Positions 25,937 through 62,804 of a DNA stretch of 64,000 nucleotides are shown piece after piece (within the stretch, counting starts at the first letter, position 1; every line of letters starts with the position of its first letter). The stretch covers positions 4,712,001 to 4,776,000 of the forward strand of contig OY751485.1 in assembly GCA_963565915.1 (NCBI GenBank), read 5' to 3'. The translations under genes were made by a program, and so were the position numbers. Source of the DNA: Entoloma clypeatum (taxonomy: Eukaryota > Basidiomycota > Agaricomycetes > Agaricales > Entolomataceae). The notes beneath the pieces were generated by a model. The model ran no database searches, was not told the origin of the DNA, and saw nothing but the letters and a program-made list of their open reading frames with translations.

Positions 25937-27607
25937 ATGATGAAGTGTAAAGGAGTCAAAATCACCGACACAGATCCTTCCACGTCCAGCGAAGCCATAA
26001 GAACACGTATCGAACAAGAAATCTCTGAATTGCAGGCTGCACTGATTGCATGCCATTCTCGATATAATTCTTTGAGTCCCATCTCGCGCCTGCCTCCCGA
26101 GATCCTATCAGGAATCTTCAAGGTCTTTGCGAAGAACGACCTTGAAGTTCCGACTCGGATATTTTGGATTGGCATAACTCACGTCTGTTCGGACTGGCGT
26201 CGTATCGCCATGGAATGTCCAAGCCTTTGGGGTTTGAACATCCCCTTGCATCGTCCCCGCTGGACAACGGAGATGCTGAAGCGCTCAAATTCGGCTCCCC
26301 TAACGGTGAAAGCATTGTTCGATCCATATCATGATTCTCGACGCACAAATATCACCACATGGGGGGAAATCTTGGAGTCCCTGCCTCGGGTCCAGAAGCT
26401 CTGCATCGATGTCTATCCCCGTTCCGACCCTCTCTACCCAAGTGCTGTCGATGATCTGACAGGTGCTGCCCCTATTCTCGAGGATCTTACCGTCAGCTCC
26501 ATCAACAGTGATCGTACCAGAGCCATTTCCCTTCCTGAGGACATCTTTTCAGGAGCTGAAGGTGCCCCCCGTTTACGCCGTCTAAAGCTGAGATGGTGCA
26601 ACTTTTCATGGCAGCCAGTGCTCCTCTGTAGACTCACCGATCTGTCGATTCGGGAACTCTCGCCTGTGTATCGTATATCAATCAGTCACCTTATTTCAGT
26701 GCTGGCCGATATCCCAAATCTCAAGGATGTTCATCTTGTCTCGGTGCTGTGTCCATTTACAGCTGTGTCCACCGCTTCTACTTCTACTCAGACCACTCTT
26801 CCTCGGATCACTCACCTTCAATTCGAGGATACTCTGCCGAACTGCACTGGTTTCTTCTCCGGCATCACATTTCCTGAGACCGTCACTGTCAATATCCGTT
26901 GTTCTCTCCCAGAGACCGAGGATTCACCTTCCGTACTGGCAGTTCCGTTGTTACTGCAAGACCTGCTCATATCCTTATCCCAATACTGTCTGCCAATTCA
27001 TACTCTTGTCCCCAGAACCAATTCATTCGAGGCATTCAATATACCATGCACCCACCGACAAAAATCCCACAACATCAATAATCACTGCGACCACCACTCA
27101 CCCCTGGTCAAGATTCTCCATGGCCCCGCAATCGGCTCAATGACAGACATGAGACTTCTCCCGGTGCAACACCTCCGCGCCCTCCGCGCAAATTTCATCG
27201 AGATGTCTAGCTCGTATTGGATCAAGACATATGGGCGGCTCAAACTGCTCAAATACATCAAGTCTACAGATTGCAATGCACCCAGTTTCATCGAAGCGCT
27301 GTTCAATGGGGTCGTAGTACTAGGCTGTCCGAATGTGTCCTTCACTCAGAGGAAGAACACCGCAGGGAGGCTGAAGTTCCGCAGCTTGGAGCTGTTGGCG
27401 ATTTGGCAAGTGGATCTTGACATTGAATGTGGGGGGCAGCGGTTGGTGGACGCCTTGAAGACGTGCTTGAAGGAGAGGCGCAGGCGCGGGCTGGCACTGC
27501 CAAAGTTGGAACTTCGCTGGTGCGAGAATCTCCGAAAGCAGGATGTGGAAGACCTGAAACCGCTGGTAAAGAGACTTTGCACCCGTTCGCCACACACGAT
27601 AATGTGA
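25937..27607 (+). CDS. F-box protein with leucine-rich C-terminal region
   Basis: Single-exon 556-residue protein. An N-terminal coil (IRTRIEQEISELQAALIACH) precedes an F-box-like motif ISRLPPEILSGIFKVFA and ITHVCSDWRRIAMECPSLWG, the usual order in the large Agaricomycete F-box family. The rest is an irregular leucine-rich region. F-box proteins normally recruit substrates to SCF ubiquitin ligases through Skp1; the substrate is unknown. A close paralogue lies inverted at 38618-40234. The gene sits between tRNA-Asp (25515-25611) and a truncated tRNA-Asp copy (27708-27783). Confidence 0.85.
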   Translation: MMKCKGVKITDTDPSTSSEAIRTRIEQEISELQAALIACHSRYNSLSPISRLPPEILSGIFKVFAKNDLEVPTRIFWIGITHVCSDWRRIAMECPSLWGLNIPLHRPRWTTEMLKRSNSAPLTVKALFDPYHDSRRTNITTWGEILESLPRVQKLCIDVYPRSDPLYPSAVDDLTGAAPILEDLTVSSINSDRTRAISLPEDIFSGAEGAPRLRRLKLRWCNFSWQPVLLCRLTDLSIRELSPVYRISISHLISVLADIPNLKDVHLVSVLCPFTAVSTASTSTQTTLPRITHLQFEDTLPNCTGFFSGITFPETVTVNIRCSLPETEDSPSVLAVPLLLQDLLISLSQYCLPIHTLVPRTNSFEAFNIPCTHRQKSHNINNHCDHHSPLVKILHGPAIGSMTDMRLLPVQHLRALRANFIEMSSSYWIKTYGRLKLLKYIKSTDCNAPSFIEALFNGVVVLGCPNVSFTQRKNTAGRLKFRSLELLAIWQVDLDIECGGQRLVDALKTCLKERRRRGLALPKLELRWCENLRKQDVEDLKPLVKRLCTRSPHTIM

Positions 27608-28777: not shown

Positions 28778-30024
28778 TCAGAAAACAGCGACTCCCATAC
28801 CCTCAGCACCCTCACCGTCGGAAAACTCCCACCCCATCCCAAGCTCCAATTCCAGCTCGGATGGGCCTCGGCCCTGCGGCTCATACTCGCCCGCCACGCC
28901 GAGCGACGCCAAAATCTTCTGCATCTCCAAGTCATGCTCCCATTCCTGTCCGAGCCCCATATCCAAAGTGGCCGTGCTCTCTATTCCCATTCCGAAATCC
29001 ATCACCTCAATGCCGCCCAGACCTGTCCCTGTCACCGTCCCCGTCCCGCTCCCCACGACGTCCGTGACGCCTACTTCCTCCTCGGCGGACGGGTCCGCGG
29101 CCGTTTGCGCGAGCGACTGGGGTACAGTCGTTGCTGCAGCAGGACCGGGGACGGAATCCGCAGACGAAGGCAGAGGCGAGGCAAGGATTTCCATGAAGAG
29201 GGTCTCCATGGTTGCGTCGTCAGGTTCCGTGGGAATGATCGTGGTCGTAAGAGGAGGCGGGGTGTGTTTGGGGACCTGAGTGATTTGATGGGAGGACGAG
29301 GTCGGGGTGAATAGGAGACCGAGGTCGAGACCAAGGGTGAGGCCACCCGCTGCAGGGACATCGCCGGAGGCTGTGTGGCCGCCGGGATGGTCGCCACCCG
29401 TGCTAGGTGGCGAGTGGGCTCATGCTTAGTGTCGGATTCGGGGGTCTCCTGTTGTTCGAGTTGGGGCAGAGGTGAAGAAGTAAGGGCGGGAGAGAAGTCG
29501 AGAGATGTGTGAGAAGGGGCGGGAGAGATGGGGTATGAGGGAGCCGGGGCGACTGTTGACGTCGGTGCTGGTGGAGGGGCGACAGGAAGACCCTGGGCGG
29601 CGAGGGCTTTGAGAACGGCGTCCCAGCCGCGTTCAAGGGTCTTGATGCGATCCTTGAGCTCTTCATTCTCACGTTCATGTTGATGAGCTTGCTGTCGGCG
29701 GTGCTCCTCCTCCGCTTGAAGAGCGGATGTCGAGGCGATGGGGAGAAGGGGAATACCCCTGGCAACGCGGAGCACCCTGTTCTCCTCCTCGAGCTCTGCT
29801 ACTCTGCGCTCGAGGTAGGCGAACTGGGCTTTTCTGCGGTCGCGGGAGTTCTGGGCGGCGATGCGGTTACGGTGTGCACGGGCCTCCTTGCGGTCCTCTG
29901 AGGTGGTTTCGGAGCGGGGACGTTTCCGGGAGGTAGTGAATTCTAGAGAGGGGGCAGGAGAGGAGGGTGTGGATGAAGATTCTGGTGCTGGGGAGAGTGA
30001 GGAAGAGAGCATGAAATTATCCAT
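28778..30024 (-). CDS. HAC1/XBP1/Cib1-type bZIP factor of the unfolded protein response
   Basis: The start is an ATG at 30024. The bZIP domain starts near residue 45 with ARAHRNRIAAQNSRDRRKAQ then FAYLERRVAELEEENRVLR; the NRIAAQNSRDRRKAQ basic region matches the XBP1/Hac1 class. A second leucine-heptad coil follows. The unspliced frame gives 317 residues, stopping at 29071 with a basic tail. A second frame (stop at 28778) encodes an acidic C terminus with METLFMEILASPLPSSADS and a Glu-rich end. Removing 50 nt at 29353-29402 joins the frames to give 398 residues, and the remaining 1197 nt is an exact multiple of three. In this family IRE1 splices such an intron under ER stress, switching to the active form. 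The assignment is by family motif and frame geometry. Confidence 0.85.
29353..29402 (-). other. Predicted IRE1-type unconventional intron, 50 nt
   Basis: On the minus strand an 8-bp perfect stem (29406-29413 with 29391-29398) carries a 7-nt loop TAGCACG cut after G29403. The 3' site is a CTGCAGC loop cut after G29353, matching the CNG/CNGN rule known for HAC1/XBP1 on a weaker, wobble-containing stem. There are no GT-AG ends. Excision joins ..TRHLA to AGGLTLGLDLGLLF in the acidic C-terminal frame. The 5' loop departs from CNG/CNGN at two positions, so its exact cut is less certain. Confidence 0.72.
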
Positions 30025-33000
30025 AGTAGTGGTAACTTAGGGGACGTCGAAGGACTGTCGTGGTTGTCTTGAGGGGGAGAGGATACTGCGGAGGGCAGGA
30101 CGAGAACGTGAGGGTATACGTGGCAAGACGTGGCGTTATATCCCCTCCGTTCCAAACACTTCAAAACATTTCTCAACGGTCACCAACGCCGTCGAATAAA
30201 TCTACCGACCGCGGCTCGCTCACCAGGTAGACGACCTCGTGAGACACATGCCCGCGTCTTCTCTTCAAAAGTGCATAAACTCTCAGCCAAGAACGAATCC
30301 CACTTCTGTGTTGTCAAGACGCCCGCGTTGAATGAGGTCCTTCAACCCTCACCGTTCAAAATCAAAGAGGTGACCATTTGCAGGTGAGAACGAATCCCCC
30401 TTATGTTCGTCTTGGAGATCGAGCTCATGTTTCGCAGATTATCTTTCCCTGTCATCATCCCTGGACTTAAAAGTCTTTCGCGTCGGGCACAGTTCGCAAA
30501 ATCCGTGGCGTCATACCTCTTTCGTATGCAAGACACCGAGAAGCGGGAGCCACGTGGAGAATATATTTGCCGAGTGAATCTGCTGAGAAAATTGTGGTGC
30601 ATCCAAACGACGACCGCGTCCACACCGACTCGAAATTCCACTGGTTCTAATTAATACAATGACCAAAAAGATGTCACGCTCTGGCACCTTTCCGAGATTT
30701 CCAGGACAATCTACTCTTCACTCTTCTTCAAGCATCTCAAGGTCTACACTCCTTGGATACCCACGGCCCCGAAGATGCTCTCCGTGGAACCCGTCACCAC
30801 CCACCAAACCGAACCCATCACTGGAACTCCCAGACCACTTACTCATGGGCACAGAGAAGTCACTCGTATCGTTTCGATTCCCAGTAGCTCCACCCTGTTG
30901 CCTCTCAGCAACGTATGTAGTTCTCATTCGAAAACTACCCTATGCAGTTGGTGCGACGAAATATCTCCAGAGAGATGAAGGTTCCCATGTGAAGTCCCGG
31001 GCCTCTCGTCCCCAACGCGAAGGGCCGCTTCGAATTTGCGCGCGGAAAGCACAAGGGCTTCGAAACGCTCGTGAGTCGTGAGGGTTTTCTTGTCTCCTTT
31101 GGAGAACGAGAGGAAGGAAGGGTTCAACGATGGCTGGGAAACTTGTTCCCAGCCGGCCGGCGCTACGATGTCAATGCTCTATGTGTCATCCCCCATGCAC
31201 GCCGGCGCCCTTTTCCTGAGAATCGACGTCAGCTCCACTGCAGTTCGTAAAAAATATGACCGCTTTCAGAATCGTAATACTAAGCTGGAGCGTGCAGGCG
31301 AGCGGTGCAGAAGAAAGGCGAAATCAATCGCTCAAAAGCTACAAAGACGATCAGAGAACAAGCACGACCAGTTCAAAACAAGAACTGTGGCCTTGCGATT
31401 TGAATATTGTAGCTTGAGGCTTGGAGGTCGGAGGTTGGCTGTCACCGCGTTTGCGGTCGCGACAGATCAGGACAGATCTGAAGACGTAGTAGGCTGACGT
31501 AGGATCAGAAAACGCCTGCGGAAACGAGGATCGGCGATGACATTGACGATGACAGCCCGAATGTTAATGATCTTCAGGGCGCCGATATTAATTGCTCGTG
31601 TCATTCCACCTACGTCGGAAGTTACGCAGCCGCAGTGCAGCCGCTCAGTCGGTTGGAAGAGACTTGAGATGGAAGAGTCGGAGATAAATGAATCTTTCTG
31701 AGCGTCGTCAATTAACTACTATGCGTCGACGTCGGGGGATTTCAATCAAGTTATGATGCATGAGAAGCGGATACCATCGAAAGACAAGGCCGCAGTCAAA
31801 GGCGAGCCCGAATGAGGGGTGGCTGATTGGCTTGCGTGATCGGCATGAATTTTTCATCTGGTGGATATACATATCACACAACGAAGATCACAGATTTAGG
31901 GTGGAGGGACCACAAGCGTCGGATTTGAAAGGAGTCCAGACGCGCTCCACGGCGCAAAGCACACATGAGGAATACCCCTATTGAAGGTCCTCGACGTGTT
32001 CAAAACGAATGGGAGTAAGCGACACCGACAGCAGACCATGTCGCGCAGTTTTTTTCCGCCGACCGTGACTTTGCTTTTTGGATGGGTGGTCCGTGGATCG
32101 TGATGGTAGAGGTACACGGGATTTTTGTCTCTCCGGTCTTGTACATATCTGGCCATAAGGGACCGAAATGCTATACGTAGCAGGCACGCATCGCCGACGT
32201 CGACGGAGGGGAAGCATCACTGGTTTGTCCATCAAAGGGACTTTTTTCCAACATACCCGAAAATGTCTGTAAGTTGAAGGGGGGGGGGGGGGGGGGGGTC
32301 AAACGTGCCGTCGCGGACCGTCGTTGCGCACTGTACACGGGTCCTCAGAGCGTCCCCTTCCATAGGGGTTTCTTTTTTCATGGTAATTGAAGAGTATTTC
32401 ACTTTAACTGGAGCCCTGGCGTGAAATTTATCCCCTGATTGATATTAATTTTTTTTTCCCATCATTTCGAGCCGTTCAAGAGTCGGAAAGAGCACGTCGC
32501 CGAGGGGTGCCACTTCTGTGGAACTGAAGGAGCGCCCGATATCTGCCACAGCACCTTGGCGGGGGCGAACGCGCAAGCAATGAACTAGTATGATGGAACA
32601 GTTCTTCACGTTTTCCAAGTTCGCGCATCCCAAGTCGCCGGTAATAACGGCCGTTGTTATTCTGTATGAAGGATCAGTAACTGTCACCGAGAAAAGCCGT
32701 CATAGGCACCCGCCTGAGTTGTCCGAATGCATGTGCAGGATATAAACAAACGAAGCAGATTTATGGCTTGCGTGCGACCGAACTCTGGGGTAAGTAACTT
32801 GGACGTCGTACACGGTCGTCTGATCATGATGTCCGTGAGGATCGAATACTTATCGTGCTTGCGTCCGCGCCTTCGCCGGTTTGGTCTGCAAGTATGGTAC
32901 ATTGGAGGACAATTCAGAGGTAAGTACTTGGGGTCGCTGTCCAGTCGGCAGGCAGAAATAATTCAGGTACTTACTTATTAGTGGCGTGAGCAAACTTTTG

Positions 33001-38617: not shown

Positions 38618-40234
38618 TCACCACCTTCCTGTCCTATATCCTCGATGCCCCACGGTTCTCTTCACCAAAGGTTTCAGGTCTTCCAGATCTTGCTCTCGGA
38701 GATTCTCACACCAGAGGAATTCTAACTTTGGCAGTGCCAGCCCGCGCCTGCGCCTCTCCTTCAAGCACGTTTTCAAGGCGTCCACCAACCGCTGCCCCCC
38801 ACAATCAATGTCAAGATCCACTTGACAAATCGCCAACAGCTCCAAGCTGCGGAATTTCAGCCTCCCTGCGGTGTTTCCCTGAGCGAAAGACATATTCGGA
38901 CAGCCTACAACCCCACTGAACAGCGCTTCGATGAAACCGGGTACATTGCATCCTGAAGACTTGATGTATTTGAGCAGTTTGAGCCGCCCATATGTCTTGA
39001 TCCAATATGAGCTAGACATCTCGATGAAATTTACGCGGAGGGCTCGGAGGTGTTGCACCGGGAGAAATCTCATGTCTGTCATTGAGCCGATTGCGGGCCC
39101 ATGGATAACCTTGACCAAGGGCAGGTGGTGGTCAGAGTGATTATTGATGTTGTGGGATTTTCGTCGGTGTATATTGAATGCCTCGGTTGAATTGATCCCG
39201 AGGACAAGAGCATGAAATGGCATACAATATTGGGACAAGGACATGAGCAGGTCCTGCAGTAACAACGGAGCTGCCAAACCAGAAGCTGAAGCCTCATTTT
39301 CTGGGAGAGAACAATGGACATTGACAGCAACGGTTTCAGGAAATGTGATACCAGAGAAGAAACCAGTGCAATTCAACAGAGTATCCTCGAATTGAAGGCG
39401 AGTGATTTGAGGAAGAGTGGTCTGAGGAGAAATAGAAACGGTGGAATCAGCTGTAAATGGATGCAGCACCGAGACAAGATGAACATTCTTGAGGTTAGGG
39501 CTATCGGCCAGCACTGAAATAAGGTGACTGATTGATATACGATGCGCAGGCGAGAGATACCAAATTGTCAGATCGGTGAGTCTACAGAGGAGCCATGGTT
39601 GCCACGAAAAGTGGCAGTACCCTAACTCTAAACGGCGTAGACGGGGTGCGCCACCAGCTCTTGAGAAGATGTTCTCGGGAAGGGGCACATCCGTAGTAAC
39701 ACCGAAGACCCTCAGAACCTCGAGAATAGGGGCAGCACCTGTCAGATTAGCAATGGCATTTCGGAAGAGAGCATGGTCGTCCGAGTGGTCAAAGCGGGAA
39801 TAGATAATGCGAAGGTTTTGTATGCGAGGCAAGGACTCCAAGATTTCCAGGAATGTGGTGATCTTTGTGCCTTCAGGGAAGCATGCGGACACCGTTAGAG
39901 GTGCTGATTTTGAACGCTTCAGCATCTCCATCGTCCAGCGGGAACAACGCAAGGGGATGCTCAAACCCCAGAGGCTTGGACATTCCATCGCGACATGGCG
40001 CCAGTGCGAGCAGACGTGAGTTACACACTGAACCCAAAGCGTGCAATCAGTGTCGTCCTCCACAAGGACCTTGAAGATTCCTGATAGGATCTCGGGAGGC
40101 AGGCGTGAGATGGAACTCAAAGAATTATATCGAGACTGGCATGCAGCCAATGCATTCTTCAATTCATAGATTTCTTGTTCGATACGTGTTTTTATGGCTT
40201 CTGTGCCGCTGAACGCATCAGGATCTGTGTATCC
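38618..40234 (-). CDS. F-box paralogue without an in-frame start, possibly inactive
   Basis: Close inverted paralogue of the F-box gene at 25937. Shared blocks include EAIKTRIEQEIYELKNAL, ISRLPPEILSGIFKVLV, VTHVCSHWRHVAMECPSLWG and a leucine-rich body, ending KPLVKRTVGHRGYRTGRW. The frame is open for more than 500 codons. However, no ATG lies in frame before the F-box; the nearest is inside it. An upstream ATG with MNCK, resembling MKCK of the other copy, sits in a different frame and stops after 20 codons. A simple intron does not repair the frame. Either the start was lost by a small indel or an upstream exon is missed. Confidence 0.65.
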   Translation of the reverse strand, partial: GYTDPDAFSGTEAIKTRIEQEIYELKNALAACQSRYNSLSSISRLPPEILSGIFKVLVEDDTDCTLWVQCVTHVCSHWRHVAMECPSLWGLSIPLRCSRWTMEMLKRSKSAPLTVSACFPEGTKITTFLEILESLPRIQNLRIIYSRFDHSDDHALFRNAIANLTGAAPILEVLRVFGVTTDVPLPENIFSRAGGAPRLRRLELGYCHFSWQPWLLCRLTDLTIWYLSPAHRISISHLISVLADSPNLKNVHLVSVLHPFTADSTVSISPQTTLPQITRLQFEDTLLNCTGFFSGITFPETVAVNVHCSLPENEASASGLAAPLLLQDLLMSLSQYCMPFHALVLGINSTEAFNIHRRKSHNINNHSDHHLPLVKVIHGPAIGSMTDMRFLPVQHLRALRVNFIEMSSSYWIKTYGRLKLLKYIKSSGCNVPGFIEALFSGVVGCPNMSFAQGNTAGRLKFRSLELLAICQVDLDIDCGGQRLVDALKTCLKERRRRGLALPKLEFLWCENLREQDLEDLKPLVKRTVGHRGYRTGRW

Positions 40235-61262: not shown

Positions 61263-62804
61263 ATGCTGACGTCGACATCACTGACTCGTATATCAGGACT
61301 TCGCATCGACAACAGTTCGCTGATCGACGTGCAAAGAGACTTCAACGTTTACAATGCCGAAAACATTTCGATTCATCGGTCAGAGGCAGGTCAGCTGCAG
61401 TTGAGCAACTCATCACCAATGTTACCAGGATTACTTGAACTGTACCGAGTATCCTCACTAGGTGCTGCTTTCGATTCCCAAGAACGTTACCCGCCGCCGA
61501 AATGTCATCCCGGAACACGAGAGGAAGTATTGAACCAAGTGGAATATTGGATTGATGCTAATGGGGAAGATGCGGAGAGAATTTCCTGGCTCCATGGCCC
61601 TGCCGGTGCTGGAAAATCGGCCATCGCGCAGACAATCTCGGAGATGTATGCCGCAAGGGGTCTCTTAGCTGGCAGCTTCTTCTTCTCAAGATCAGTGCCC
61701 TCACGCGACACTGCTCGAAACTTCTTCACGACGATGGCTTTCCAATTTGCTCAGTCGATGCCCTGCAAAAGGAAAGCCATTTCCAAAGTTGTTGAGAATG
61801 ATCCCTCCATTCTCCATAAGCAACATGCCGCACAGTTGAAGCAGTTGGTTATCCAACCACTCCTGTTATCCTCCGACTCAGACAGTGGGCCATTGCCTTT
61901 TCTTGTGATTGTGGACGGCTTGGATGAGTGCCAAGGTAACCGTGATCAGTCGCAGCTGTTGTCGCATATCTTCGAACTGGTAACGACACAAAATCTCCGT
62001 TTACGATTCCTCGTCATCAGCCGTCCTGAACCCCATATCCATCATTTCTTCAAGGACTCTGCAAATAAAATTAGCAGACAGATATCGCTTTATGGCGATC
62101 TTCAGGCTAGGAAAGACGTTTATTTGTTCCTTCAGACAAGCTTCGACGAGTTACATGACTCCGGGAAGCATGCTATCATCATGAAGTCTACCCCCAAGCC
62201 CTGGCCACATGACGACGTGATTCAGTTGCTCGCAGACCGTTCTGGCGGTTATTTCATCTATGCGTCAACCGTGGTAAAATATGTTGATGAAGAATATTTT
62301 TCACCCATTAGCCGCCTCCAAGAAGTCCTCGACATCTCGCGCCCCGGTACCACGGCCTTTGGAGAAATTGATAAACTGTATAGTCAGGTCTTGTCAACCC
62401 ACCCTAATACCGACCTTCTGTTGCGCATACTTGGGGGCCTTCTATTACCACCCTCACCACGCAGACGGCACCAATGCATTGAAACCGTTGAGGCCATTCT
62501 TAATCTACATCCTGGGGAGGTGATGTTAGCTTTACAGGGGTTACACTCCGTCTTGCACTTCTTGGACCCCAACAGCATACGGTCGCCCAAGGAGGATAAG
62601 TCGTCACAGGTTGTGGCATACCACGCTTCATTTCCAGAATTTCTCTTCGACGAAGAGCGTGCCGGAAAATATTACATTGATACTGGAAAAACTCACTTGA
62701 TCATGATCCATGGAACGGCGGATTTAATCCGAGACTACAATATCAGGCTCCCCTCCATCAAGTGGGCTATTGGCAATAGAAGTTGGTTGAGTTGCAAAAA
62801 CTGA
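61263..62804 (+). CDS. NACHT-domain NTPase (fungal NLR-like)
   Basis: The start ATG is at 61263. N-terminal part: DFNVYNAENISIHRSEAG. Linker: PPPKCHPGTREEVLNQVEYW. NACHT core: WLHGPAGAGKSAIAQTISEM (Walker A), GSFFFSRSVPSRDTARNFF, FLVIVDGLDECQGN (Walker B), LRFLVISRPEPHIHHFF, GGYFIYASTVVKYVDEEYFS and VAYHASFPEFLFDEERAG. This is the standard order in Agaricomycete NACHT proteins, which are NLR-like signalling ATPases. No N-terminal effector domain (HET or patatin) and no WD/TPR repeats are seen. The frame ends at 62804. A continuing frame (62821-63048: HQEEIFLNLTCRLDATVGSP, then EYIHESAKSWQPC) would need a very short intron or marks a frameshift. Confidence 0.85.
   Translation: MLTSTSLTRISGLRIDNSSLIDVQRDFNVYNAENISIHRSEAGQLQLSNSSPMLPGLLELYRVSSLGAAFDSQERYPPPKCHPGTREEVLNQVEYWIDANGEDAERISWLHGPAGAGKSAIAQTISEMYAARGLLAGSFFFSRSVPSRDTARNFFTTMAFQFAQSMPCKRKAISKVVENDPSILHKQHAAQLKQLVIQPLLLSSDSDSGPLPFLVIVDGLDECQGNRDQSQLLSHIFELVTTQNLRLRFLVISRPEPHIHHFFKDSANKISRQISLYGDLQARKDVYLFLQTSFDELHDSGKHAIIMKSTPKPWPHDDVIQLLADRSGGYFIYASTVVKYVDEEYFSPISRLQEVLDISRPGTTAFGEIDKLYSQVLSTHPNTDLLLRILGGLLLPPSPRRRHQCIETVEAILNLHPGEVMLALQGLHSVLHFLDPNSIRSPKEDKSSQVVAYHASFPEFLFDEERAGKYYIDTGKTHLIMIHGTADLIRDYNIRLPSIKWAIGNRSWLSCKN

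Follow-up and report, generated by a model that had tools for sequence, protein, structure and literature searches.

A predicted 50-nt Ire1-type intron that would switch the C-terminal tail of an XBP1/HAC1-class bZIP protein in Entoloma clypeatum

The window analyzed here is a 64,000-nucleotide stretch of the Entoloma clypeatum genome, and on its minus strand lies a bZIP gene with its ATG at 30024 (Table 1). A Pfam scan located the bZIP domain with E values of 5e-9 (PF00170) and 3e-8 (PF07716), an NCBIfam scan returned no relevant family, and an Rfam scan of the gene gave two chance matches below threshold, neither a HAC1 nor an XBP1 family being recognized. A search of the genome turned up no further copy of the gene. 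Without splicing, the reading frame runs across the predicted intron into a basic tail and stops at 29071; this tail comprises 109 residues after the 5' site, with 25 K/R and 0 D/E. An acidic frame in another register stays open between a point slightly before the 5' site and its stop at 28778. Removal of 29402-29353 shifts the frame by +2 and exchanges the basic tail for the acidic one, yielding 398 codons plus a stop (1197 nt) and a tail after the 5' site of 190 residues with 3 K/R and 29 D/E. An initial annotation, made from the letters of the sequence and a list of its open frames, had described both the 317-codon bZIP frame with a basic tail and the excision of 50 nt that leaves 1197 nt and moves translation into the acidic frame, and our computation of the frames reproduced both.

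Table 1. Features of the bZIP gene and its predicted intron (window coordinates).
Feature	Position	Strand	Basis or description
Unspliced reading frame	29071..30024	minus	317 aa, bZIP protein, basic C-terminal tail
bZIP domain, residues 42-86	29767..29901	minus	Pfam matches PF00170 and PF07716, each passing the cut-off
Exon 1 coding part, 622 nt	29403..30024	minus	frame computation
Predicted Ire1 intron, 50 nt	29353..29402	minus	sequence, homologue patterns, decoding
Exon 2 coding part, 575 nt, acidic C-terminal frame, stop at 28778	28778..29352	minus	
5' hairpin, 8-bp stem, loop UAG↓CACG (off-consensus)	29391..29413	minus	hairpin search, decoding, Q/L change
3' hairpin with a weak stem, loop CUG↓CAGC matching the consensus	29346..29358	minus	sequence, constrained fold, decoding
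Exon 1 arm of predicted exon-exon stem enclosing both hairpins	29414..29440	minus	MFE fold
Exon 2 arm of predicted exon-exon stem	29320..29346	minus	MFE fold

The segment from 29402 to 29353 reads CACGGG...CCCTG, so its ends are not those of a GT-AG intron. At the 5' site we find UCGCCACC-UAG↓CACG-GGUGGCGA (the arrow marks the cut), a perfect 8-bp stem closing a 7-nt loop. The 3' loop, CUG↓CAGC, fits the sequence CNG↓(C/A)NGN that yeast Ire1 needs (PMC8104961), but its stem is weak, with two G-C pairs and one U-G pair. The 5' loop keeps the length of 7 nt, the G at -1 and the C at +1, and it misses two of the three fixed consensus positions, having U instead of C at -3 and C instead of G at +3. 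By sequence there are four equivalent placements of the cuts, as GCA is present at both sites, and we chose the G↓C point on the basis of known Ire1 chemistry. In the free fold the 3' stem is slipped by one base and the 5' loop is closed by a U-G pair; a fold in which both 7-nt loops are imposed is less stable by 2.6 kcal/mol (-53.6 versus -56.2). The 121-nt region is more stable than all 200 of 200 shuffles (z -4.1), and for the spliced 76 nt, where z is -3.6, one of 300 shuffles was as good. These results bear out the two stem-loops that had been proposed to flank the 50-nt segment, the 5' one on an 8-bp perfect stem recovered by our hairpin search and the 3' one with the CNG/CNGN match that had been claimed for that loop only, with the provisos that the 3' stem is weak and slips in the free fold and that the 5' loop departs from the consensus at -3 and +3.

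Perfect hairpins of 8 bp with a 7-nt loop occur at two places in the window (4 matches, both strands counted), and 20 Markov sequences gave a chance level of 2.6 such hairpins on average and of 0.15 with an NNG↓C loop. Because these hairpins are not rare in 64 kb, the hairpin alone is not decisive and the case rests on the comparison of homologues. Besides the 5' hairpin, the window contains one perfect 8-bp/7-nt hairpin, at 31132-31154.

Two protein searches returned 413 and 532 matches, from which the best 120 of each gave 178 distinct homologues; a third search with P0067 as query, from which we took the best 120 of 498 matches, brought the set to 229. The named homologues are presumably all Agaricomycetes. 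Many of those listed are called X-box-binding protein 1 in UniRef, where names are not curated, and the nearest of all those listed belong to Lyophyllaceae, for example Tricholomella, at 50% identity across the full length. The peptide [RC]H[LPSIVM]A[RA] that marks the 5' site is present in 147 of the 178 listed homologues, and 93 of the 178 carry both site peptides in the unspliced frame ([LQM]QR downstream), with implied introns of 29-56 nt. The others divide into 41 with the 5' peptide only, 13 with a joined reading, 23 whose switch to the acidic frame lies upstream of the 3' site and 8 with none of these patterns, three of which (P0040, P0053, P0067) carry the variant RQLARLA. This comparison, made on homologue proteins, bears on the earlier proposal that conservation of both loops be tested in orthologous genes.

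The pattern fixes the letters H, A, R and Q-R and leaves the other positions free. At these free positions the 93 homologues with both peptides have L in 92 cases, V in 87 (M in 6) and then A in 92, while among the 147 with the 5' peptide a T precedes it in 143 and one of S/P/T/A stands one position further out in 144. Between residues -3 and -9 before the motif the commonest residue reaches only 22-41%. The resulting T-R-H-L-A-R-V-A-T is symmetric about the loop, consistent with a hairpin requirement. The acidic frame is also conserved in the homologues, with a shared motif and a shared end. As for the basic tail, the end PPRRK of the window's unspliced frame (29071) recurs in 11 of the 178 listed homologues, and RRK in 34.

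Where one gene model in frame 0 and another in frame 2 read the same DNA, the codons are nearly fixed and the nucleotides can be decoded; as a control, the window's own sequence was returned exactly except for one base at the end. The decode pattern, which itself demands T first, is matched by 21 of 23 frame-2 proteins. With an assumed frame-0 peptide, 19 of these 21 gave GCA CGG GTG GCG, P0035 (Amanita muscaria) with P0115 as its partner gave GCA CGG ATG GTG, and P0120 gave no decode (1 of 21 tried). A real frame-0 partner consistent across the whole intron was available for 7 of the 21. The 5' arm could be decoded for Lentinula raphanica (P0057 with P0072, same species) and for Trametopsis cervina (P0173 with P0071 or P0073, neither of which is known to be of the same species). 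Both decodes read ACT CGC CAC CTA GCA CGG GTG GCG AC, so that the 23 nt of the window's 5' hairpin are matched base for base in the two species despite introns of 38 and 47 nt. The 3' site decodes as YTG CAG CGG GTG in all 10 of 10 consistent pairs.

For covariation in the 5' stem we applied a looser pattern, admitting other residues at the H and V places, to the 229 listed homologues. This gave 139 unspliced readings, in which the facing stem residues are H/V (130), H/M (6) and Q/L (3); the unpairable combinations H/L, Q/V and Q/M do not occur among the 139. The third base of the H codon pairs with the first base of the V codon in the stem, and with third bases inferred from the protein, H (CAY) facing V (GTN) can form C-G or U-G, H facing M (ATG) can form U-A, and Q (CAR) facing L (YTN) can form G-C, A-U or G-U. 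Judged from these codons, Q/L would be a double change that keeps the pairing, and hence compensatory. It was probably a single event, as the three proteins that show it (P0040, P0053 and P0067, all reading TRQLARLA) are close relatives. The Q type is also found in joined form, P0184 (jgi, 1557-nt contig) reading TRQLAAGG.

Joined readings appear in 14 of the 229 listed models: 10 read RHLAAGG, which is exactly the predicted junction, and the remainder RHLAAGV (1), RQLAAGG (1) and RHPAAGG (2). The last two, P0018 (Mycena vitilis) and P0023 (M. rosella), are three bases off the RHLAAGG junction. P0048, P0055, P0175, P0176 and P0184 come from contigs of 1.2-2.4 kb. P0055 and P0094, from lgn contigs of 1344 and 1381 nt, have 187 residues in common and diverge at the site; their C termini fit one DNA over 18 codons, with P0055 lacking 41 nt. 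Of 3219 pairs tested, only 10 gave such a one-DNA fit over 18 codons, and these included pairs from different species. We read P0055 as a spliced transcript, assuming that gene calling on the lgn and jgi contigs involved no intron models; models with the joined reading may be products of annotation pipelines.

A different origin of the frame change would be a spliceosomal GT-AG intron, for instance one that ends at the TAG before 29402 or one that starts from GTGAGA at 29672. The initial annotation had named such an intron as grounds for rejecting its proposal, and we looked for it by enumeration. Candidates exist: 34 GT-AG pairs of 35-200 nt join both frames (donors from 29724 on, none further upstream), as do 5 shorter ones (15-34 nt) and 72 longer ones (201-400 nt). 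Among the pairs of up to 200 nt, GTRWGT is matched by the donors at 2 of 4 positions at most, and the pair ending at 29403 uses the donor GTCAAC and is without CTRAY. The donor GTGAGA scores 3 of 4 and could join an AG at 29419, 29371 or 29350, but a CTRAY is missing from the final 60 nt of these pairs. Donor strength says little in this genome, since the Ire1 gene's own intron starts with GTGCTT. The models themselves lend the GT-AG reading some support: in 23 of the 178 listed the switch to the acidic frame lies upstream of the 3' site, and in 13 the join is a GT-AG-like one of 23 nt. These 13 belong to the 41 that have the 5' peptide without the 3' one; they fit a 23-nt cut ending at the CAG of the 3' site, read DAPPGG or similar (e.g. 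P0074, P0103, P0114, P0125) and are, by their names, presumably polypores. These joins are probably repairs of the frame shift made in gene modeling, and the public annotation is worth correcting. A length of 23 nt would seem to be below what a spliceosomal intron needs. The GT-AG reading also leaves unexplained the T-R-H-L-A-R-V-A-T symmetry, the Q/L change, the conserved LQRV at the far end and the RHLAAGG models, and we consider it very unlikely.

The genome holds candidates for the splicing machinery. Ire1 RNase exons lie at C10:2782574-2783026 together with a kinase domain, and an upstream exon of this gene begins with a hydrophobic, signal-like stretch as read by eye. A ligase domain at C14:2605919-2606804 is read across two stops, which are probably introns, and a CPD domain lies at C14:2607840-2608397; going by these two domains, the genome appears to encode a Trl1-type ligase in addition to Ire1. 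A search for RtcB gave no match in the genome at E 0.001, with 9 of 14 control genomes positive. When aligned to yeast 3fbv, the local Ire1 has N, D and K at yeast E988, K992 and Y1059 and keeps Y1043, N1057 and H1061 as read from the alignment, where some of the yeast residue numbers are those we take to apply. Its interface is thus of the S. pombe/human type that PMC8104961 links to relaxed specificity. The interface would permit relaxed cutting and does not prove it, given that most species have it, human Ire1 included (PMC8104961).

The departure of the 5' loop from the consensus is not peculiar to Entoloma. U must stand at -3 in 133 of the 139 unspliced readings because leucine codons always have T in the middle, the remaining 6 having S (5) or P (1) at that place, and G at +3 is impossible in all 139 because arginine codons start with C or A (R being fixed by the pattern). 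Beyond what the initial annotation contained, then, the 5' loop is off-consensus and, as far as codons can be read from proteins, the departure itself is conserved. We think it fairly probable that the Agaricomycete Ire1 substrate is asymmetric, its 3' loop CUG↓CAGC following the consensus and its 5' loop UAG↓CACG being conserved yet off-consensus, so that a strict yeast Ire1 should not cut the latter while a relaxed Ire1 of the S. pombe/human type reads it. If so, this class of substrate would reveal to what extent splicing can do without the twin-loop rule, and the difference between the two ends could impose an order of cutting.

The same loop could be explained by a real intron in which another nuclease makes the 5' cut and Ire1 cuts the consensus 3' site only, although we know of no other two-nuclease case in the HAC1/XBP1 gene class. 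The strict rule given for yeast Ire1 in PMC8104961 is indeed obeyed by the 3' loop only, the 5' loop failing at -3 and +3. Against this, a relaxed yeast Ire1 mutant needs less, requiring on one substrate little beyond the G and C at the cut (PMC8104961). Furthermore, the length of 7 nt, G at -1 and C at +1 are all retained in the 5' loop, and the interface of the local Ire1 is of the relaxed type (N/D/K at yeast 988/992/1059). We regard a second nuclease as highly improbable. That there is no intron at all, the acidic frame being a chance overlap or a decayed gene, is scarcely credible: fungal DNA rich in G+C often contains overlapping open frames, but this one is conserved with a shared motif and end, and some models join at the predicted point.

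Taken together, an Ire1-type intron is by far the best account of the locus, as both sites are conserved, the 5' stem has undergone what looks like a compensatory change and models exist with the exact joined reading. The proposal of the initial annotation is thereby supported with respect to gene class, borders, frame switch and machinery. We regard it as very probable that this is an agaric XBP1/HAC1-class gene whose 50-nt intron is cut by Ire1 and whose exons are ligated by a Trl1-type enzyme, with a swap of the tail. What speaks against this is that the 5' loop breaks the CNG↓(C/A)NGN rule, that the 3' stem is weak and not the free optimum, and that many other homologue models arrive in the acidic frame by a different join. 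We file the gene as a HAC1/XBP1 variant since gene, frame switch and machinery make it a member while the 5' loop deviates from the strict form.

We infer cutting by Ire1, the function of the two tails and stress control of splicing in E. clypeatum, and propose the following sequence of events. Upon ER stress, activated Ire1 would make two cuts in the mRNA, one following G29403 (UAG↓C) and the other following G29353 (CUG↓C), the 50-nt piece would leave, and a Trl1-type ligase would join the exons, whereupon the joined frame would replace the basic tail by an acidic, probably activating one. The predicted exon-exon stem would keep both ends together. Exon 1 may also trade its pairing with the intron (UCGCCACC with GGUGGCGA) for pairing with exon 2 (CCACUCGC with GCGGGUGG), and such a swap would help to eject the intron. 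In the predicted fold before cutting, UCGC lies within the intron hairpin; in the 76-nt spliced fold it is the exon 1 stretch CCACUCGC that pairs with GCGGGUGG of exon 2, and the decoded Lentinula ends fold likewise. A 30-nt fold of the window's joined ends prefers another exon-exon register than that of the proposed swap.

Metazoan XBP1 shares with this gene the twin hairpins and the frame switch to an activating tail, and exon-exon pairing, predicted here, is reportedly also a feature of XBP1, where Peschek is said to have described it in 2015 as an RNA zipper. That zipper resembles the pairing swap predicted for Entoloma. XBP1 differs in that both of its loops fit the consensus, in its 26-nt intron and in ligation by RtcB, which our search of the Entoloma genome did not find. 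Saccharomyces HAC1 is alike in its Ire1 and Trl1 chemistry and in the CNG↓(C/A)NGN sequence, present at the Entoloma 3' site, and unlike in its 252-nt intron that pairs with the 5' UTR; in Entoloma, pairing of the intron with a presumed UTR, the 201 nt that precede the ATG, was not above shuffles (169 of 300 as good). Ustilago maydis cib1 is likewise a basidiomycete UPR bZIP gene with an unconventional intron, which is 65 nt long. Cryptococcus neoformans HXL1 is also a basidiomycete bZIP gene, described with an Ire1-dependent unconventional intron downstream of the bZIP that switches the frame of the C terminus, and with homologues listed in Laccaria and Coprinopsis (PMC3154848). Compared by that description, the HXL1 intron has 56 nt against 50 nt in Entoloma and 29-56 nt implied in the listed homologues, and its borders are given as CAG at both ends as opposed to UAG and CUG in the Entoloma gene (PMC3154848). 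Among the open-licence literature matches listed we found no description of an Agaricomycete intron of this kind; the main survey (Hooks and Griffiths-Jones 2011) lies outside that scope.

Knowledge of the two sites would allow the annotation of mushroom genomes, whose models now disagree on the join, to be corrected, and would make RT-PCR a simple measure of ER stress in fungi grown for food or for enzymes. With a conserved off-consensus 5' loop, what Ire1 needs in a splicing substrate becomes directly testable. Trametes cinnabarina P0130 is one of the listed homologues with the 5' peptide, and we take this species to be the same as Pycnoporus cinnabarinus. For the genome of P. cinnabarinus, a polypore, the absence of a clear Hac1/Xbp1 orthologue was reported, though Ire1 and Trl1 are present (PMC4101180).

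Elsewhere in the window, two open frames at 25937-27607 (plus strand) and 38618-39988 (minus strand), clearly related, in opposite orientation and F-box/LRR-like as judged by eye, flank the bZIP region, and a further frame of this appearance lies beside the Ire1 gene on contig C10. A 513-aa frame at 61263-62804 (plus strand) contains the P-loop GPAGAGKSA and has, again by eye, the look of a NACHT-type ATPase.
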